A program made the translations under genes and the position numbers. From assembly GCA_937967625.1 (NCBI GenBank), contig CALCJP010000090.1, positions 1 through 40,118 on the forward strand: a stretch of DNA of 40,118 bases. The letters are read 5' to 3'. Source of the stretch: an uncultured Saprospiraceae bacterium (GTDB taxonomy: Bacteria; Bacteroidota; Bacteroidia; Chitinophagales; Saprospiraceae). Of the stretch, positions 3,146 through 38,214 are shown in pieces (position 1 is the first letter of the stretch; the number at the start of each line of letters is the position of its first letter). The notes below the pieces were generated by a model. It was not told where the DNA came from, did no database searches, and saw only the letters and a list, made by a program, of their open reading frames with translations.

Positions 3146-4384
3146 TTGAAACTTCCATGCACTAAAACCACGCAATTGGAATCCGTATCACCCGAAGTCA
3201 GTTGTCAAATCAAAGGAAAGGAATATCGCATTGCGTTTTTCCCTTCAGTCAGTGAGTTGCCGGAAGAGTGGGTCTATTTGGCTTCGCAAGGCAGCACTTT
3301 CGTGCAAAAACCCTATCTGACCGCTCTCGAATTGGCACCGCCTACCAATATGAATTTCGGCTATCTGCTATTTTATAAGGATGGAAAAGCAATTGGATTG
3401 TCTTGCTTGCAGACGACGATTTTTCAGGCAGAGGATAGTTTGAATGATGGGAGTGCGAACCCTTCTATTTTTGCGAAATTGGGGAATGCCATCAAAAATT
3501 GGTTTTCCAAAATTGTAAAGATTCCAGTGCTGATTGGTGGCAATATTTTAGTGACAGGCGAGAACAGTTATGTGTATAGCGAAGACGACATTTCCGAAAG
3601 GGAATTTATCGACCTGTGGAAAGAGGGACTTCATTTCGCGAAAGCGGAATTAAAAAAGCGTGGACTCAACACGCACGGCTTTTTCTTAAAAGATTTTTTT
3701 GAACCAAAGGTGCCCTTCATGTCAGAGACTTTGGGCGAAGGCTTCCATGAATTGTCGGCGCAACCGAACATGGTTTTTCATGTGCGCGAGGAGTGGGAGA
3801 CTTTTGAAGATTACTTAGGGTCGATGTCTTCCAAATATCGAACGCGCGCCAAAAGCGCCTATAAAAAAGGCAAAGATTTGGAGCGCCGCGTGATGGACGA
3901 AAAGTTGATTGAAGTATTCAGCGAACGCATTCATGAGTTGTATAAAATCGTTGCGACCAATGCTGGTTTCAATCTCTTCATTTTGCATGATGATTATTTC
4001 CTCGAACTCAAAAGGCAGATGGGCGATCAATACGAAATGGTGGGCTATTTTGCTGATAATCAATTGGTTGGCTTTCGAACTTTGATAAATAGTCATGATG
4101 ATTTGGACGCGCATTTTGTGGGTTATGATCCTGCCTTTAATCGCCAATGCAAATTGTATCAGTGCATGTTGTATGACATGATCAAAGCTGCCATTGAGCG
4201 AAAAGCTGCCAACCTCATTTTTGCCAGAACGGCGATGGAAATCAAATCTGCTGCAGGTGCGGAAGGATATAATATGTCTTTTTTTCTAAAGCACCAGAAC
4301 GGCTTTATCAATCGTTATACAGGGCGGATTTATAATTATTTGGAGCCGCCAGTGGAGTGGGTGGCGCGGTCGCCGTTTAAGTGA
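3146..4384 (+). CDS. FemAB/GNAT-like acyltransferase
   Basis: 412 residues with the two-lobed layout of peptidoglycan FemAB-like and GNAT-fold proteins. The N-terminal lobe has SxFVQKPYLTALE then YLLFYKDGKAIG (about 48-86). The C-terminal lobe has the marker stretch SSKYRTRAKSAYKKGKDL (about 228-245), followed by YEMVGYFADNQLVGFRTLI and DAHFVGYD (about 296-325), the typical GNAT beta4-beta5 region. The start is a TTG at 3146, since no in-frame ATG precedes the conserved part. Family members transfer acyl or aminoacyl groups; the substrate here cannot be read. No signal peptide, so probably cytoplasmic. It stands alone and converges with the next gene across an inverted repeat pair. Confidence 0.65.
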   Translation: MKLPCTKTTQLESVSPEVSCQIKGKEYRIAFFPSVSELPEEWVYLASQGSTFVQKPYLTALELAPPTNMNFGYLLFYKDGKAIGLSCLQTTIFQAEDSLNDGSANPSIFAKLGNAIKNWFSKIVKIPVLIGGNILVTGENSYVYSEDDISEREFIDLWKEGLHFAKAELKKRGLNTHGFFLKDFFEPKVPFMSETLGEGFHELSAQPNMVFHVREEWETFEDYLGSMSSKYRTRAKSAYKKGKDLERRVMDEKLIEVFSERIHELYKIVATNAGFNLFILHDDYFLELKRQMGDQYEMVGYFADNQLVGFRTLINSHDDLDAHFVGYDPAFNRQCKLYQCMLYDMIKAAIERKAANLIFARTAMEIKSAAGAEGYNMSFFLKHQNGFINRYTGRIYNYLEPPVEWVARSPFK

Positions 4385-5474: not shown

Positions 5475-5520
5475 AGGTGCGAAGATCGTTTTCTTGTTTA
5501 AATTTTCAAATTGCAACTTA

Positions 5521-5557
5521 TTCACTTTCGTGAAATGTCCTCATTCCGCGAAAGCGG
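5521..5557. repeat. Two short tetraloop hairpins upstream of the substrate-binding-like gene
   Basis: 5521-5534 (ttcactttcgtgaa) and 5546-5557 (ccgcgaaagcgg) are two members of the C-GAAA-G / C-TTTC-G hairpin family seen throughout the window. The first would lie in the 5' leader of the minus-strand gene, 46 nt before its start. Confidence 0.75.
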
Positions 5558-5560
5558 CTA

Positions 5561-6300: not shown

Positions 6301-9300
6301 TTTTATACCGTTCCATAAACTTCTCATAGAGCGGATTTCCTTTCAGCATTTCTGGACAACCCACCACTACTAAATGATGGCGCGCACGCGTCAGTGCCAC
6401 GTTGAGTTTTCGATCTGTCCCATCACTCATCAGACTGGTCATCGAAGCCAATTGCGAATCCGTATTCGTACACAACGAAATCAAAATCACATCTCTCGCA
6501 CTACCTTGATAGCGCTCCACCGTATCTATCGAAAGGTCATCAGTGAGCATTTTGGCTTTCGCCAAATAATCGGTAATCAAGGCAATCTGTGCGCGATAGG
6601 GCGTAATGATTCCGATAGTTGCTTTAAGACTCATCTGCTTAAAAATCTTTCTAAAATCTCCCACCAAATCCACTATCTGTGCCGCCTCGTATTTATTCGT
6701 TTTTTGGAAGCCATCGTCCATGTCCACTTTGGAGGGGAGGAAAAGGACACGTTTGGTCAGTAGCTTTTCGATGATGTTTTCGCGGTCGGTAACTTGTTGA
6801 CTATCAAGGGTTTGTTGCTGTGTAGAGCGATAAGCGATTTCTTCTGGAAGGATTTTTAAGTGTCCTTGATAGAAATATTCATTGGGGAAAGTCATGATGT
6901 CTTCGTGCATTCTGCCCTGATGACTGAGGCGGTCGTATGCCCAAGACCAACCATTTTTTTCGCATTGCAAAAACAGCCGCTCAAAGAACGAGTTGCGCAT
7001 ATCTGACAGTCCGATGGATTCTAATTTTTCGTCCTTAGTAGCAGACAATTCAGGCGATTGCGTCACCACAGCTGGTAGTTGCTTGTGGTCGCCAATCAAA
7101 GTGAAATGCTCGAAATGAGTCAGCAACCCCGTCAACATCGGTTCCAACACCTGCGATGCTTCATCAATGATGACGCGCTTGAATTTTTTCATCTCCAATA
7201 ATTCCATCTTGCTGCCAAAAGAAGAGAGCGTCGCCACAAAAACGCGATGCCGCTGCACGATGTCCAAAAGCTCCGACCGCTTTTTAGCAGGAGCGATTTT
7301 TTGATCCAACAATTTTCCGCGAAAGCGGGGATCAGTCCCATAACGCGAGCCAATTCGGATGTAAGAATTTTCAACCTCATCGCCCAAACTCTCAATTGCC
7401 GCACAAATCTCATCAACCGCTCTGTTGGTGTAGGCTAAAATCAACACATTCTCCTCGGTTTCATTGAAGTAATAACCCGCCAAATTTTTGAGCATCATGC
7501 TCGTCTTGCCAGTCCCAGGAGGTCCCCAAAGCAAAAAGTAATCTTTAGAAGCAATTACCTTTCGGAAAATTTTCCCCTGCTCGCGCGTCAACTCTTTTGG
7601 CAATTCTAAACTCACTGGATTTGGTTCTTTTGGTGGGCGCTGAAGCAGTAGTAAATCTTTCTTTTCACGAGGCGCCGAAGCAAACTTAAACAAGCCTCGA
7701 TACATCCCCACAAAACTGCTATCCAAAAGGTCATGCTCCAAATTCCAAATCTGATTCTCATCAAAAATCGTCGAATTAAATTGCCGTGAACGCAACCGCA
7801 CAACCACCTGCTCTTTGCTCAACTCAATGATGGTCACTTTAAAGACCTGATTAGTTAAAACAGTATCGGTCGGGTTCGTAAAAGGGTAGAGCGCTCCAAT
7901 ATCACCTACGCGAAAATTCGCCAGCGGGTTAGTCTTTTCTGTTTTATTAAAAATCAGTAATGGTTCGTCCTTATCTGATTGATTATCAACGAGTTGGAGG
8001 TGGCTGATAATTTCAAAATTCCGCTCTTTGTCATGAAACGGATTGCGCCATAGCGAGGCAATTCCATTAGCGTTAGAGACGCCTTCCATCCCCGTTTTCG
8101 CCATCTGATGTTCGCGAGCGATAAAGCCGACGAAGCTGTTGAAATATTTCTTTTCGAGTGGCGTCAGTCCTGCATAGGTCTTTTCAAAGCGCTCCATGTC
8201 GCGTGCTTGAAAACCCTTTACTTTGGGGAAGTATTGGGGGCGCAATTTGGAGAGTAGTTGTGTTGCCCCTCCACGAAGCGAGTTCGGGACAGGTTCCTGA
8301 GAATGACCCCCAGACCTCCTAAAGGGGGGATTTGCTTTTTGTGCACTTTCAGTTTCTTTAGATGTGGAAGAATCTTCCTCTTTATTTTTTGCAACAAGCT
8401 GATCATTTGAATGCTCTGATTTCCCCATATCGGTTCCCCCGCGTCGGGGGTCAGGGGGCAAACCCGCCTCCCCTCGATTTTCCGCAACCGCCAACCCTTG
8501 CTCAATCGCCACCAACTGATTCCTAATCTGCAATGCCTCATACTGCTGCGACTTCACCACCGGCGCAAATCGCAACGGCTTATCTATCGAAGAGGAATAA
8601 AGAATGTAGTTGGTCGGCTTCAATTTATTATTGAAAGTCGTTTTGATGAGCAGGTCGTAGAGTAGCGTTTGTGTAAAGTGATTATTGCTCAAACCGTAGG
8701 CGTTGGGCATGTATGCTTTCCCTGACTTCAATTCAACAATAGCGGATTTCTCCGAATGATGGAAGGCATCCAAACGTCCCTGCAAGCCATATTCAGCAGA
8801 GTAGAAAGTCGGTTCCAAATAACAACTCTCTCGGTCGATTTCGTTTTTGGCGAAACCCGTTTTGACCATCATCTTGATGACTTGAAAATGCCCTTTAGAT
8901 TTGAGCATGATTTCTTTCACCTGCCCATCTGACATCATCGCAAAGCGGAGCGGAAACAACCCAAACACTTTCGGAAACAACTCCATGAACTGCGCATCAG
9001 GGTTGGTCATCAGTTCGTCCAAAAAGAAGTTGGCAATGTTTCCAATAATCAACGCGGACGAACTCGAAAACGGCATCATTTTTTTCAGCAAGTAGAGCAT
9101 TGGCTCATTGTGCTGGGGTTGAAAACATTCCGCGACAGCGGTAATATCCATTAAGTAATCTGGCTCTACTACAAATGCTTTTGGTCGCAAAACGCCCTCC
9201 TCATCAATCTCAACGTCGATTAAATTGACCATTTGGGGAAACCCAAAAGTGTCTCGTATCGCTCTGATGGTGGGGTTGAAATTGGCATTACGTTCCGGCA

Positions 9301-10011: not shown

Positions 10012-11334
10012 TTAAATCAACCTCATCGGCATATCATTCGCAGGTTTGAGTGTCACCAAAGCTTGATAACCTGGCTCGCCATCACCCATATATTCAAAGC
10101 CAAACCGCTGGCAAAGCATGGCTAAAATCAATTGCATTTCCATCATGGCGAAGTGGTTGCCGATGCACATTCGTTGCCCTGCGCCGAAAGGCATGTAGGC
10201 ATATTTGGGAATAGATTTGACTCGGTCGGGATGGAAGCGCTCCGGGTCAAACTCATTGGGGCGTTCCCAATTCTTTTTGGATCTGTGGGCAGCCGAAATG
10301 CTAATGAACATTATTGACTTCTTAGGAATTTTGGTTCCCAAAACCTCTGTGTCCACAGCGGCTTCTCGACCGACGGCATAGCCGGGAGGGTAGAGGCGCA
10401 TGCCTTCTTCGATGACCTGTTTTGTGTATGTAAGTTGCTGTATATCAGTAAATTGTGGTTTTTTATCGCCAATCACCCGTTCCGCCTCTTCTTTTACCTT
10501 TCGGTAAATGTCAGGATGTTGCGAAAGCAAGTAAACCGTCCAAGCGAGCGCATTGGAAGAAGTCTCATGCCCTGCCGCAAATAGCGTAATTGTCTCATCC
10601 CTAATTTCTTCATCAGACATAGATTCGCCCGTATCCGCATCTTTAGAATGAATCAACATCGTCAAAAAATCATCGGGCGGATTGGCTGCTTCTCGATGCT
10701 GTCTGATGAATTCATACGCCAATTCGTCGAAAGACGCTTTGTCTTTCAAAAACTTTCGATGCCTTCCGTTGATATACATAAAAGGAATCATCAGCGGGCG
10801 CGTGGTGCGATACATGATATAGTCTTGCGCATCGACGATTTGGCGATAGAGTTCGAGTTTGTCCGCTTCACTTTCAATGCTGAAGAGCGATTTCAAAACG
10901 ATTTCGGAAGTGACATCCATCATCAGGTGAGAGAAAAGAACCTCCTCGCCTCGCTTATTTTCTATGCTTTCGCAAAATGCAGTGGTGCTATCGACCATCT
11001 TGTCGATGATGCCCATCAGCGATTTTTTATAAAAGGCAGGCTGAGCAAGTCGTCGCTGCCGTCGCCAAAACTCGCCTTCGCTGGTGACGAGTCCATTGCC
11101 TAAAGCTAATTTTAGTTGTGCATAAGCGGGACTTTTAATAAAGTCTCGTTGATGAGTCACCAAGGTGTGTTTGATGACTTCTGGATTGTGAGTAATGAAG
11201 ATTTTCCGTAAGGGAGAATCTAATAAGAAGAAGTCACCCAAGGAGTCTTCTTGTTTGATTGGAAAATTGACTGGGTCGTTGAGGAAGTCGAATCCGCGTG
11301 TGAGGAAGTTTTTTTCTTTGTATTCGGGAATCAT
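10012..11334 (-). CDS. Cytochrome P450
   Basis: 440 residues, full length for a soluble bacterial P450. The I-helix oxygen-activation motif AAGHETSS has Glu257-Thr258, the K-helix ExxR is Glu310 to Arg313 (EGMRLYPP), and the heme loop FGAGQRMCIGNH places the thiolate ligand at Cys390. These haem monooxygenases insert one oxygen atom into an organic substrate using electrons from a ferredoxin or flavodoxin pair. No redox partner gene lies nearby, so partner and substrate are unknown. No membrane anchor at the N terminus (MIPEYKEKNF), so cytoplasmic. It is transcribed away from rpsL. Sequence type resembles the CYP102/CYP4-like group often seen in Bacteroidota, which is inference. Confidence 0.92.
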   Translation of the reverse strand: MIPEYKEKNFLTRGFDFLNDPVNFPIKQEDSLGDFFLLDSPLRKIFITHNPEVIKHTLVTHQRDFIKSPAYAQLKLALGNGLVTSEGEFWRRQRRLAQPAFYKKSLMGIIDKMVDSTTAFCESIENKRGEEVLFSHLMMDVTSEIVLKSLFSIESEADKLELYRQIVDAQDYIMYRTTRPLMIPFMYINGRHRKFLKDKASFDELAYEFIRQHREAANPPDDFLTMLIHSKDADTGESMSDEEIRDETITLFAAGHETSSNALAWTVYLLSQHPDIYRKVKEEAERVIGDKKPQFTDIQQLTYTKQVIEEGMRLYPPGYAVGREAAVDTEVLGTKIPKKSIMFISISAAHRSKKNWERPNEFDPERFHPDRVKSIPKYAYMPFGAGQRMCIGNHFAMMEMQLILAMLCQRFGFEYMGDGEPGYQALVTLKPANDMPMRLI

Positions 11335-11430: not shown

Positions 11431-11481
11431 AGCACATAGTTTAGACGCACAAAAGTGAGTTTGTAAATCATTATCAACATT

Positions 11482-11556
11482 CCCCGAAAGGGGTAATTCA
11501 AAATAAAATTCTAAAAAACGGTCAGCTACCCATCATTTTTTATCCACTTTCGTGGA
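11482..11556. repeat. Two short tetraloop hairpins upstream of the rpsL promoter
   Basis: 11482-11493 (ccccgaaagggg) and 11543-11556 (tccactttcgtgga) belong to the C-GAAA-G / C-TTTC-G family. Both lie upstream of the predicted rpsL promoter, so they would not be in the main ribosomal transcript. The rest of 11335-11635 is AT-rich and without a supported gene. Confidence 0.75.
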
Positions 11557-11635
11557 ATATAGGAACGATCATTTTTGAGCCACTGTTTACCGAATTCTCG
11601 ATGGTTCGCACCTTAAAAAAAAGTTTGAACTTCAT

Positions 11636-14952: not shown

Positions 14953-14968
14953 TTTGGCTTTCGCCAAA
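14953..14968 (+). repeat. Short tetraloop hairpin before rpsJ
   Basis: tttggctttcgccaaa folds into a 6-bp stem with a TTTC loop. It ends 16 nt before the rpsJ start codon. The same 16 bases occur inside the helicase gene at 6551-6566. Confidence 0.8.
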
Positions 14969-14984
14969 TATTATTAATTCAGGC

Positions 14985-17981: not shown

Positions 17982-17991
17982 GCCTTTCGGC
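17982..17991 (+). repeat. Short tetraloop hairpin before rpsS
   Basis: gcctttcggc forms a 3-bp stem with a TTTC loop, 38 nt before rpsS. It is the weakest member of the family in the ribosomal spacers. Confidence 0.5.
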
Positions 17992-18029
17992 AAATGCGGA
18001 TAGAATCAAAATACTTAAAGTAGCATAAT

Positions 18030-18293: not shown

Positions 18294-18348
18294 TTGAATT
18301 TTTCCTTCTTTGACTGTTTTTTTGGTCAAAACGAAGTTTGAATATATT

Positions 18349-18360
18349 TCCCGAAAGGGA
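18349..18360 (+). repeat. Short tetraloop hairpin before rplV
   Basis: tcccgaaaggga, a 4-bp stem with a GAAA loop, 31 nt before rplV. About 30 nt upstream, tttgac and gtcaaa form a second, less regular hairpin in the same spacer. Confidence 0.75.
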
Positions 18361-18806: not shown

Positions 18807-18844
18807 TTCCGCTTTCGCGGAATGATAATATTTCCCGAAAGGGA
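18807..18844 (+). repeat. Paired tetraloop hairpins before rpsC
   Basis: 18807-18822 (ttccgctttcgcggaa, TTTC loop) is followed by 18833-18844 (tcccgaaaggga, GAAA loop). The two loops are complementary. The second ends 29 nt before rpsC. The same arrangement occurs before rpmD and after map. Confidence 0.85.
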
Positions 18845-22192: not shown

Positions 22193-22224
22193 ACTAAATA
22201 TTTTCCGAAAGGAAGATATTTAGT
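22193..22224 (+). repeat. Extended tetraloop hairpin before rpsN
   Basis: The longest member of the family: actaaatattttcc at 22193-22206 and ggaagatatttagt at 22211-22224 form a 14-bp stem with one G-T pair around a GAAA loop. It begins 3 nt after the rplE stop and ends 17 nt before rpsN. Confidence 0.85.
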
Positions 22225-22241
22225 ACAAAATACTACCAATT

Positions 22242-22964: not shown

Positions 22965-22976
22965 TTTAAACTCATT

Positions 22977-23014
22977 GCACGAAAGTGCGAACTTCATTTT
23001 CCTTATGGAAAATG
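22977..23014 (+). repeat. Two hairpins before rplF
   Basis: 22977-22988 (gcacgaaagtgc, GAAA loop) is followed by 22995-23014, an 8-bp stem (cattttcc and ggaaaatg) around a TTAT loop. The second ends 35 nt before rplF. Confidence 0.75.
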
Positions 23015-23049
23015 CATAAATTGATATTTAGTACTTAAATAATAGAATC

Positions 23050-24562: not shown

Positions 24563-24600
24563 TTTCGCTTTCGCGAAATAATGATATTTCCCGAAAGGGA
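24563..24600 (+). repeat. Paired tetraloop hairpins before rpmD
   Basis: 24563-24578 (tttcgctttcgcgaaa, TTTC loop) is followed by 24589-24600 (tcccgaaaggga, GAAA loop). The cores are 24 nt apart, exactly as before rpsC. The second hairpin ends 16 nt before rpmD. Confidence 0.85.
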
Positions 24601-26664: not shown

Positions 26665-26680
26665 TTTGACTTTCGTCAAA
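26665..26680 (+). repeat. Short tetraloop hairpin before map
   Basis: tttgactttcgtcaaa folds into a 6-bp stem with a TTTC loop. It begins 6 nt after the secY stop and ends 17 nt before map. Confidence 0.8.
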
Positions 26681-26697
26681 TATTTTTCCAAGCAATT

Positions 26698-27528: not shown

Positions 27529-27568
27529 TTCCGCTTTCGCGGAATAAACATAATTTCACGAAAGTGAA
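27529..27568 (+). repeat. Paired tetraloop hairpins between map and the infA promoter
   Basis: 27529-27544 (ttccgctttcgcggaa, TTTC loop) is followed by 27555-27568 (ttcacgaaagtgaa, GAAA loop), cores 25 nt apart. They lie upstream of the predicted infA promoter, so in the map transcript they would be in its 3' part. Confidence 0.85.
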
Positions 27569-29590: not shown

Positions 29591-29601
29591 TATATTTTTT
29601 A

Positions 29602-29636
29602 CATAAACCTGAGCATTTCCTATGCTCAGGTTTATG
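29602..29636 (+). other. Strong hairpin between rpsD and rpoA
   Basis: Arms 29602-29616 (cataaacctgagcat) and 29622-29636 form a perfect 15-bp stem with a 5-nt loop. No T run follows on the plus strand, so it is not a simple intrinsic terminator. It may mark RNA processing, attenuation, or a stability boundary between ribosomal genes and rpoA. Confidence 0.7.
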
Positions 29637-29642
29637 CTCATT

Positions 29643-29654
29643 CCACGAAAGTGG
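29643..29654 (+). repeat. Short tetraloop hairpin before rpoA
   Basis: ccacgaaagtgg, a 4-bp stem with a GAAA loop, 33 nt before rpoA and 6 nt after the larger hairpin. Confidence 0.75.
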
Positions 29655-29687
29655 CTTCTTCTTTTCAATATAAGTCCAATCTAAATT

Positions 29688-30688: not shown

Positions 30689-30704
30689 TTTCCCTTTCGG
30701 GAAA
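30689..30704 (+). repeat. Short tetraloop hairpin after rpoA
   Basis: tttccctttcgggaaa folds into a 6-bp stem with a TTTC loop, beginning just after the rpoA stop codon (30684-30686). The remaining spacer up to rplQ (30705-30844) has no other feature that I can name. Confidence 0.8.
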
Positions 30705-30844
30705 TCAAAAATAAATTTGGCAAACAGCGGCTCTTTTGACGCTGGGATTTAAAAATAAATTGCAATAACCGACTACTCAACTTACGCTGCCAATCGTAAT
30801 TTCAAAGTTGAGGAAAAGTGTTGCGAAGTTAAATTCTTATAAAA

Positions 30845-35330: not shown

Positions 35331-35438
35331 ATTTATTCACATGATATTTCTAAACAAACCTGATTCATCCTCCATTTTTTACTTTTTATCGAATAGTTGT
35401 TTCAATGGGTCTTGGAATTGCTACATTTGAATTCATTT

Positions 35439-35589
35439 CCCGAAAGGGGGAGAGGAGGATTTGTTTTGCTTCGCAGATTGTTGCGCCACTTCGTGGCTGA
35501 TTGTTTCGTGGCTTTCGCCACTGATTGTTTCGCTTTCGCTTAATGTGAATGAGAGTTATGCCGAAGTTCGCAGAGCTTTGCGAAAGCGA
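35439..35589. repeat. Cluster of short hairpins upstream of the permease
   Basis: Within 150 nt lie cccgaaaggg (35439-35448), gccacttcgtggc (35485-35497), gtggctttcgccac (35508-35521) and ttgcgaaagcga (35578-35589). Between them the phrase attgtt(t/g)cg recurs three times. The region has an open frame of 63 codons on the plus strand but its composition is set by the repeats, so I do not call a gene. The rest of the 35305-35660 gap holds only the FMN-gene promoter. Confidence 0.65.
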
Positions 35590-38083: not shown

Positions 38084-38202
38084 TAAATTAATATGGAAGG
38101 CTGATAGCAGTCATTTACATATTAAAATATTATAAACCCTTCTTATCTATACTATCAATTCGTTTTTTGTTGCAACCTTAGCGACTGGCGAATTTTGTCA
38201 TT

Positions 38203-38214
38203 TCGCGAAAGCGA
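38203..38214 (+). repeat. Short tetraloop hairpin before the PKD gene
   Basis: tcgcgaaagcga, a 4-bp stem with a GAAA loop, ends 28 nt before the start codon. The distance matches that seen before rpsC and rplV. Confidence 0.75.

Follow-up and report, generated by a model that had tools for sequence, protein, structure and literature searches.

The spacers of a ribosomal-protein operon in an uncultured Saprospiraceae bacterium carry small hairpins that recur in inverted pairs, which raises the question of whether these pairs act as structured RNA or represent dispersed DNA elements. The window is the whole stretch of DNA that was analysed (40,118 nt, contig CALCJP010000090.1). The original prediction described a CTTTCG hairpin followed by a CGAAAG hairpin before rpsC, before rpmD and after map, with cores 24, 24 and 25 nt apart, and all three pairs were found in place with exactly these spacings. 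The pattern CTTTCG-N10..40-CGAAAG had five matches in the window, whereas 100 shuffles gave 0.10 on average and never reached five. The fourth match is a further doublet that had not been predicted, and the fifth (10498-10527) lies within an ORF and its right arm has no foot. A similar linker had also been proposed for the three pairs; the similarity resides in conserved feet, AAATR on the left and YATTT on the right, whereas the central 4 nt are free. In the following list, a unit is one hairpin with its foot, and a doublet is two inverted units standing foot to foot.

18807..18844: canonical foot-to-foot doublet before rpsC; perfect left hairpin 18807-18822, left core CTTTCG at 18812, right core CGAAAG at 18836; free 4-nt core ATAA (18825..18828) between the feet GAATG and TATTT; spacer of 83 nt, the three congeners having 32-34 nt.
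24563..24600: canonical foot-to-foot doublet before rpmD; perfect left hairpin 24563-24578, cores at 24568 and 24592; 4-nt core ATGA (24581-24584); spacer block of 280 nt against 241-255 nt in congeners.
27529..27568: off-register doublet after map; perfect left hairpin 27529-27544, cores at 27534 and 27559; 5-nt gap, right foot AATTT (A in place of Y); spacer block, small ORFs included, of 614 nt against 454-455 nt in congeners.
5520..5559: fourth doublet; 4-nt gap with core TCCT (pattern match 5525-5554).
18345..18359 (+): single unit TATTTCCCGAAAGGG in the spacer before rplV, which is 68 nt above the congener median.
22199..22213 (+): single unit TATTTTCCGAAAGGA within a longer palindrome; spacer +51 nt against the congener median.
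22973..22987 (+): single unit with foot CATTG and CGAAAG core at 22980; spacer +49 nt against the congener median.
17982..17996 (-): single unit, minus-strand CATTTGCCGAAAGGC; spacer +45 nt against the congener median.
26668..26682 (-): single unit, minus-strand TATTTGACGAAAGTC, between secY and map; spacer +9 nt.
29639..29653 (+): single unit CATTCCACGAAAGTG; own spacer 11 nt below the congener median.
30692..30706 (-): single unit, minus-strand GATTTCCCGAAAGGG; own spacer 11 nt below the congener median.
14956..14970 (-): single unit, minus-strand TATTTGGCGAAAGCC, after a fusA-like gene; spacer 14 nt below the congener median.
11478..11492 (+): single unit CATTCCCCGAAAGGG.
11545..11559 (-): single unit, minus-strand TATTCCACGAAAGTG.
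35434..35448 (+): single unit CATTTCCCGAAAGGG.
38199..38213 (+): single unit CATTTCGCGAAAGCG.
3632..3646 (+): single unit CATTTCGCGAAAGCG within an ORF, which could be a coding coincidence.
6554..6568 (-): single unit, minus-strand TATTTGGCGAAAGCC, within an ORF, which could be a coding coincidence.

Frequencies were determined in the own genome (3,081,577 bases, 278 contigs, 64.2% complete) and in a 600,701-base sample made up of the window and 60 further stretches. Other small repeats are present in the window. The sequence GATATTTAGTAC is common to two nearby spacers (22215-22226 and 23023-23034), and one of the copies is located inside an extended palindrome, CTAAATAT...ATATTTAG, surrounding a unit. 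Positions 35490-35545 hold an array of the small hairpins CCACTTCGTGG, GTGGCTTTCGCCAC and CGCTTTCGC, with TGATTGTTTC between them. The sequence TGATTGTTTCG occurs 10 times in the 600.7-kb sample and 0 times reversed.

The basic unit is a single directional hairpin, not a pair. Its consensus, 5'-YATTT-NN-C-GAAA-G-N'N'-A-rich-3', has a core of 15 nt and comprises in order the foot YATTT (or YATTC), two free stem bases, C, a GAAA loop, G and two complementary bases, followed by an A-rich 3' side that dies away around position +24 counted from the foot. In the own genome, YATTTNNCGAAAG matched 812 times forward and 758 times in reverse (1570 in total), against 4 and 5 for the reversed control, and the hairpin instances in this one genome thus number well over a thousand, which is the high copy number expected of a REP sequence. 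The hairpin-forming palindrome expected of REP was likewise present: the inner stems were complementary in 266 of 313 foot-anchored sample matches (approximately 85%) and spread over many pair types, against 43.5 after shuffling and a maximum of 63 in 1000 shuffles, and the stems of 30 doublets covaried, as presented below. The commonest feet were CATTT (163 of 599) and TATTT (103), and neither foot counts nor logos showed the REP tag tetranucleotide GTAG/GTGG (or CGTC). Among 422 hairpins with a unit foot and a GC-rich 3-bp stem, the loop was GAAA in 298, GTAA in 24, GGAA in 20 and TTTC in 17, with GACA and GCAA in 7 each. Stem pairs that deviated from Watson-Crick pairing on the GAAA strand, counted at three positions and mostly outermost, were G.T in 73 cases and A.C in 14, beside 60 pairs of other kinds and after two rows of a longer repeat were dropped; the inner two positions alone gave 20 against 8 (p = 0.036). 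Because G.T exceeds A.C to this extent, the GAAA strand is the one that folds. Unpaired units in the sample began abruptly with the foot on the 5' side and were rich in A on the 3' side, and no signal or trace of a lost partner was detected upstream of the foot.

Pairs of units recur throughout the genome. The pattern CTTTCG-N8..38-CGAAAG gave 245 matches in the own genome, some of them overlapping, against 22 for the backwards pattern, and a stricter doublet pattern gave 146 against 0. Among unit pairs in the sample, enrichment was limited to foot-to-foot neighbours, and a gap of exactly 4 nt was found 22 times (loose arms) against 0.19 per gap value at 20-298 nt. The spacing is a real property, and the pairs withstand the refuting condition set in the original prediction, since they exceed what the abundance of single hairpins would produce; inverted doublets above chance are also a REPIN feature. 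The number of 4-nt doublets in the sample was 19, 22 or 30, depending on the strictness of the arm definition, and 30 of 44 sample doublets had this gap. The same gap was found in 45 of 65 distinct own doublets, a set that is biased in that 27 of the 45 rows came from loci chosen because of earlier hits. These 45 doublets had 37 different 4-mers as cores, with R before the core in 43, Y after it in 43, a first core base rich in A and a last one rich in T; the 30 sample pairs had 27 core values as counted by eye. Both arms shared an inner stem type in 9 of 30 doublets, against 6.55 under random pairing (p = 0.17), which gives no support to the idea that doublets originate when one arm is duplicated in inverted form. 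Given the free variation of the 4-nt core and the independent assortment of the arms, the suggestion that the three pairs in the operon are copies of one composite element is not supported. In the gap test, 48 arms were GAAA with GAAA and 1 was GAAA with GGAA; no pair in the sample had matched variant loops, and variant loops were rarer in paired units (1/49) than in unpaired units (57/313, p = 0.0026).

Covariation in 30 aligned doublets favours two local hairpins over one long one. The local-hairpin score was 0.375 against 0.124, with 0 of 500 shuffles as high, and 45 cells were changed on both sides against 12.7 in shuffles; further pair types were at shuffle level (12 against 12.1). The score for one long hairpin was 0.123 against 0.105 in shuffles, 46 of 500 being as high, and compensatory change of the REPIN kind was accordingly close to the shuffle level. 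Energy folding alone was ambiguous. When the three window pairs noted originally were folded as DNA, two gave two local hairpins and one gave the long form; as RNA, the arms paired with each other in the plus strand of all three, and the minus strand of the rpsC doublet gave two hairpins.

Spacers contained 230 of 362 units and represented about 31% of bases according to a rough gene caller, whose coding fraction of 69% is surely too low because it misses genes. By the same rough calls, the other 132 units lay within genes, 77 on the strand of the gene and 55 on the opposite strand. Unit density was similar in the three spacer types, with 32 units per 14.4 kb in convergent, 95 per 55.3 kb in codirectional and 43 per 25.1 kb in divergent spacers, the convergent type being slightly denser. 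The doublet pattern had 0 matches in viral contigs.

Comparison with relatives was used to evaluate how the hairpins reached their sites. The closest relatives by rpsC protein were Aureispira and Saprospiraceae MAGs, and operon DNA identity to three congeners was 71-72%. Thirty gene junctions were comparable, 11 of which bear hairpins in the own genome, and no core was present at these 11 junctions in the three congeners (eight by comparison, three by eye). The 11 spacers differed from the congener median by -14, -11, -11, +9, +37, +45, +49, +50, +51, +68 and +159 nt, so that 8 exceeded it, 7 of them by at least 37 nt; the +159 block also holds small ORFs. The 19 junctions without hairpins had a median of +5 and a range of -264 (a long congener spacer) to +44 (Mann-Whitney p = 0.033). 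In the central operon alone, all 8 of 8 core-bearing spacers were longer; the full 30-junction set is weaker and is preferred here. These length differences support insertion as the probable origin at most sites, but not at all of them. At two sites, AT-rich or hairpin sequence of the congeners could be related, and the unit there could have arisen in place by mutation. No clean empty site was found in the own-genome stretches examined. In the spacer before an rpoA-like gene (window 29591-29687), congener G122 has an unrelated hairpin, GGTTTTTCAAAAACC, near the place of the own unit, and replacement of one hairpin by another is possible there. A separate repeat with the ends AGAGGTTTACTAAACTT...AAGTTTAGTAAACCT and containing CATTTAGCGAAAGCG was observed at L225:9851-9978, at L048:1602-1732 and in the L182:383 region. 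Its L182 copy carries an extra hairpin of about 22-24 nt, which the other copies compared lack; this appears to be another case in which a very small hairpin has inserted, with unoccupied versions of its site present elsewhere in the genome.

The pattern CTTTCG-N10..26-CGAAAG was matched 202 times in the own genome (control 11) and 1-12 times in the others of the six genomes of the genus (controls 5-16). The latter counts do not exceed chance, with the exception of two G097 doublets that have the 4-nt gap. Matches to YATTTNNCGAAAG in congeners numbered 9-48 against 5-16 in controls, and some congeners may have a low true copy number; in G097, 8 unit-like rows were observed in 189 kb, part of which was chosen for hits. 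An 82-nt block with a doublet is 95% identical to a block between different genes in G097, a congener whose operon DNA shows about 72% identity, and a further copy beside a Y1 gene has the same flanks by eye and a different 4-nt core. These copies provide the best evidence for recent movement or transfer. In several other genera, YATTTNNCGAAAG had 100-776 matches, and the narrower YATTTCSCGAAAGSG had 0-84 in 36 such genomes (84 in G142, 36 in G136 and 32 in G037; controls 0-1). When one locus was read per matching genome, 29 of 33 unit-like hits in 30 loci fell within open frames of at least 200 codons, and by eye the hits spelled peptides such as YFPKG or LPKG. On the basis of this one locus per genome, the other-genera matches were treated as codon coincidences and a patchy family-wide element was rejected; for the same reason, it is uninformative that 9 of 22 genomes of other genera with pattern matches have no Y1_Tnp match.

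Y1 transposase genes were surveyed as candidate sources of an enzyme. Y1_Tnp (PF01797) had four hits in the own genome, which is 64% complete. Two proteins are intact, score 64.4 and 60 bits against an NCBIfam IS200/IS605 cut-off of 55 and fall below the RAYT cut-off; by eye, their motifs YVLNQELHH and YIKNQKEHH fit Y---Q--HH, which Quentin et al. 2018 (PMC6006769) give as the signature of Y1 subclass 1.2. The third gene, C141, has this signature plus a stop, and the fourth, C42, is RAYT-like by its YIHFNP motif and also carries a stop. A doublet is located about 290 bp upstream of the C81 Y1 gene, and a doublet with two single units about 120-280 bp downstream of the C11 Y1 gene. Doublets within about 300 bp of two of four Y1 genes are suggestive, but this proximity was noticed post hoc. 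As for a cognate RAYT flanked by the unit, the doublets stand near two IS200-like genes, and the sole RAYT-like gene in this 64% complete genome is broken. The hairpins flanking the C11 gene most closely are of a different type that is not dispersed in the sample, the densest unit clusters lie elsewhere than beside Y1 genes, units were present at 0 of 16 congener Y1 loci, and no enzyme could be tied to the unit among the Y1 genes of this incomplete genome. Hairpins of other kinds accompany several Y1 loci. The IS200-like gene at L033:1263-2040 has different hairpins on both sides (CCACAGG/CCTGTGG, CAACCCC/GGGGTTG and AACTGC/GCAGTT) that are rare elsewhere in the sample; the broken RAYT-like gene at L034:356-1014 lies between hairpins with the loops TCCT and GGGA; and at the congener RAYT-like loci L163 and L173, hairpins whose loops are of the TCC and GGA types stand in both orientations.

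Several explanations have to be weighed against these data. The original prediction that the loops kiss in RNA, or more generally that the pairs form a cis-regulatory RNA element in ribosomal-protein leaders, draws on complementary loops, a fixed spacing and three copies within ribosomal operons, and it is now very improbable. The complementarity of TTTC and GAAA follows automatically from the inverted repeat, and pairs with matched variant loops are absent. Since selection on structure is biased toward the GAAA strand, a given RNA would carry just one of the two hairpins in the proper sense, and the plus-strand RNA of the three window pairs is predicted to fold into the long form instead. Most units are single, the congeners lack the core at the hairpin-bearing junctions, and spacer units disregard the direction of transcription: in codirectional spacers, the folded strand was the gene strand 44 times and the opposite strand 51 times. 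Rfam gave 0 matches at the gathering threshold over the window; within the rpsC spacer, its weak matches had E values of 0.059 (20.1 of 46.4 bits) and 0.42. The case also cautions against taking complementary loops in inverted repeats for RNA kissing pairs. Bidirectional intrinsic terminators, for which location in spacers and the slightly higher density in convergent spacers would speak, are hardly credible. The base order is reversed, with T-rich sequence before and A-rich sequence after the stem on the folded strand; no T-run follows the hairpin, as the GAAA-strand stem is followed by A-rich sequence and that of the other strand by AAATR, and copies also occur inside operons and in divergent spacers.

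Two DNA readings come closer and are still unlikely. A classical REPIN would replicate as a doublet, fold as one long hairpin and be spread by a RAYT, and its singles would be wrecks of doublets. The excess of inverted pairs, the greater purity of paired units, the long hairpin obtained on folding (one of three window doublets as DNA, all three as plus-strand RNA) and the 82-nt block with a doublet at a different locus in a congener agree with this scheme, which we nevertheless consider unlikely: long-hairpin covariation hardly departs from shuffles, the arms assort independently, the 4-nt core differs even among copies with near-identical flanks, and 146 strict doublets stand against 1570 single-unit matches. 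Singlets as doublet remnants would also require upstream partner signal, which unpaired units do not have, although paired units are purer. The second reading takes the hairpins for protein-binding or DNA-uptake-like sites of the chromosome, which point mutation would both create and maintain where they stand; it appears distinctly doubtful. A dimeric protein would read the dyad AAATR-N4-YATTT, with single units as half-sites. Sites bound by dimers typically combine a fixed geometry with a free core, and this combination is found here together with independent arms and with three hairpin-bearing spacers that are no longer than those of relatives. Against this, a reader of duplex DNA would not need free stem sequence to be kept self-complementary and would not give the asymmetry of G.T over A.C, most hairpin-bearing spacers contain extra DNA, and the 82-nt block is shared between different genes.

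We consider it reasonably probable that the hairpins form a REP-like family of tiny, non-autonomous, mobile single-stranded DNA hairpin elements, moved by a hairpin-reading enzyme that is probably a Y1 HUH protein. In this proposal, an ssDNA-hairpin transposase, most likely of the TnpA-IS200/TnpA-REP kind, would read foot and loop on transiently single-stranded DNA, and units would be copied or moved into spacers. In a doublet, the second unit would be set, or kept, on the opposite strand at the fixed 4-nt distance, which two subunits of a dimeric enzyme could impose. The copies in the ribosomal operon would be tolerated passengers in spacers and not switches. Points against this reading are the 132 units within called genes, the three hairpin-bearing spacers that are 11-14 nt shorter than in congeners, the hairpin-free spacer that is 44 nt longer, the congener Y1 loci devoid of units and the YATTTCSCGAAAGSG matches in other genera. 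A more specific version, which is speculative and which we hold only tentatively, takes the single hairpin as the mobile entity. Each doublet would then be formed afresh by an enzyme complex that hairpins guide to act on both strands with a 4-nt stagger: seated on the foot of one unit, the complex would place or cut another unit on the opposite strand at a distance of exactly 4 nt. If true, de novo formation of doublets would account for the exactness of the gap, the sequence freedom of the core and the independence of the arms. We know of no such 4-nt two-strand targeting rule in REP or IS200/IS605 elements and, to our knowledge, few bacterial repeats this small, with a 15-nt core, show strand-specific structure selection. 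No description of such an element in Saprospiraceae or Bacteroidota was found in the open-licence papers searched. More than 1000 instances provide a natural mutational scan in which loop and foot are nearly fixed and the stem is free but self-complementary, and the exact, free 4-nt gap gives a quantitative hint of the way in which an enzyme acting on ssDNA hairpins may place or cut its substrate.

Among known systems, the Nostoc SDR elements, reportedly described by Elhai and colleagues in 2008, are dispersed hairpins of 21-27 nt with compensatory mutations and are considered mobile. They differ in sequence and phylum, and fixed-gap foot-to-foot doublets are not known from them. The REP/REPIN sequences of Pseudomonas fluorescens SBW25, as described by Bertels and Rainey 2011 (PMC3116915), resemble the present family in their short palindromes, very high copy number, enriched inverted doublets and compensatory changes, and their doublets are likewise purer than singlets. 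The present units differ from these RAYT (TnpA-REP) associated sequences in that the foot is YATT(T) and not GTAG-like, singles dominate, the free gap is exactly 4 nt, covariation indicates two local hairpins and no RAYT is tied to them. In the group 3 REP of Marinomonas sp. MWYL1, with its small perfect 5-bp stem, the stem is reported to have a slight role in recognition and the 5' tetranucleotide to help choose the cleavage site, and certain loop positions of REPMb or REPSm permit no change (PMC8266576). A free stem, a near-fixed loop and a 5' foot are found here as well; the Marinomonas REP differs in that its tetranucleotide is GTAG, at two bases from the stem, and in that its enzyme has been assayed. 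Within the same phylum, PMC6006769 describes Y1 subclass 2.6 of Bacteroidetes with atypical hairpins that lack GTAG and have copies elsewhere in the genome, which resembles the present case, as does subclass 1.2 in its signature, visible by eye in three Y1 genes here. The differences are that the nearest hairpins to the Y1 genes of this genome are of another kind than the unit, and that subclass 1.2 is described as generally devoid of typical terminal IS200 structures. Because two tested REPIN features and the GTAG foot fail, the family is not filed as REPIN; by analogy, its hairpins appear close in logic to the enzymatically studied REPs, and the family is best filed as probably working like REP.
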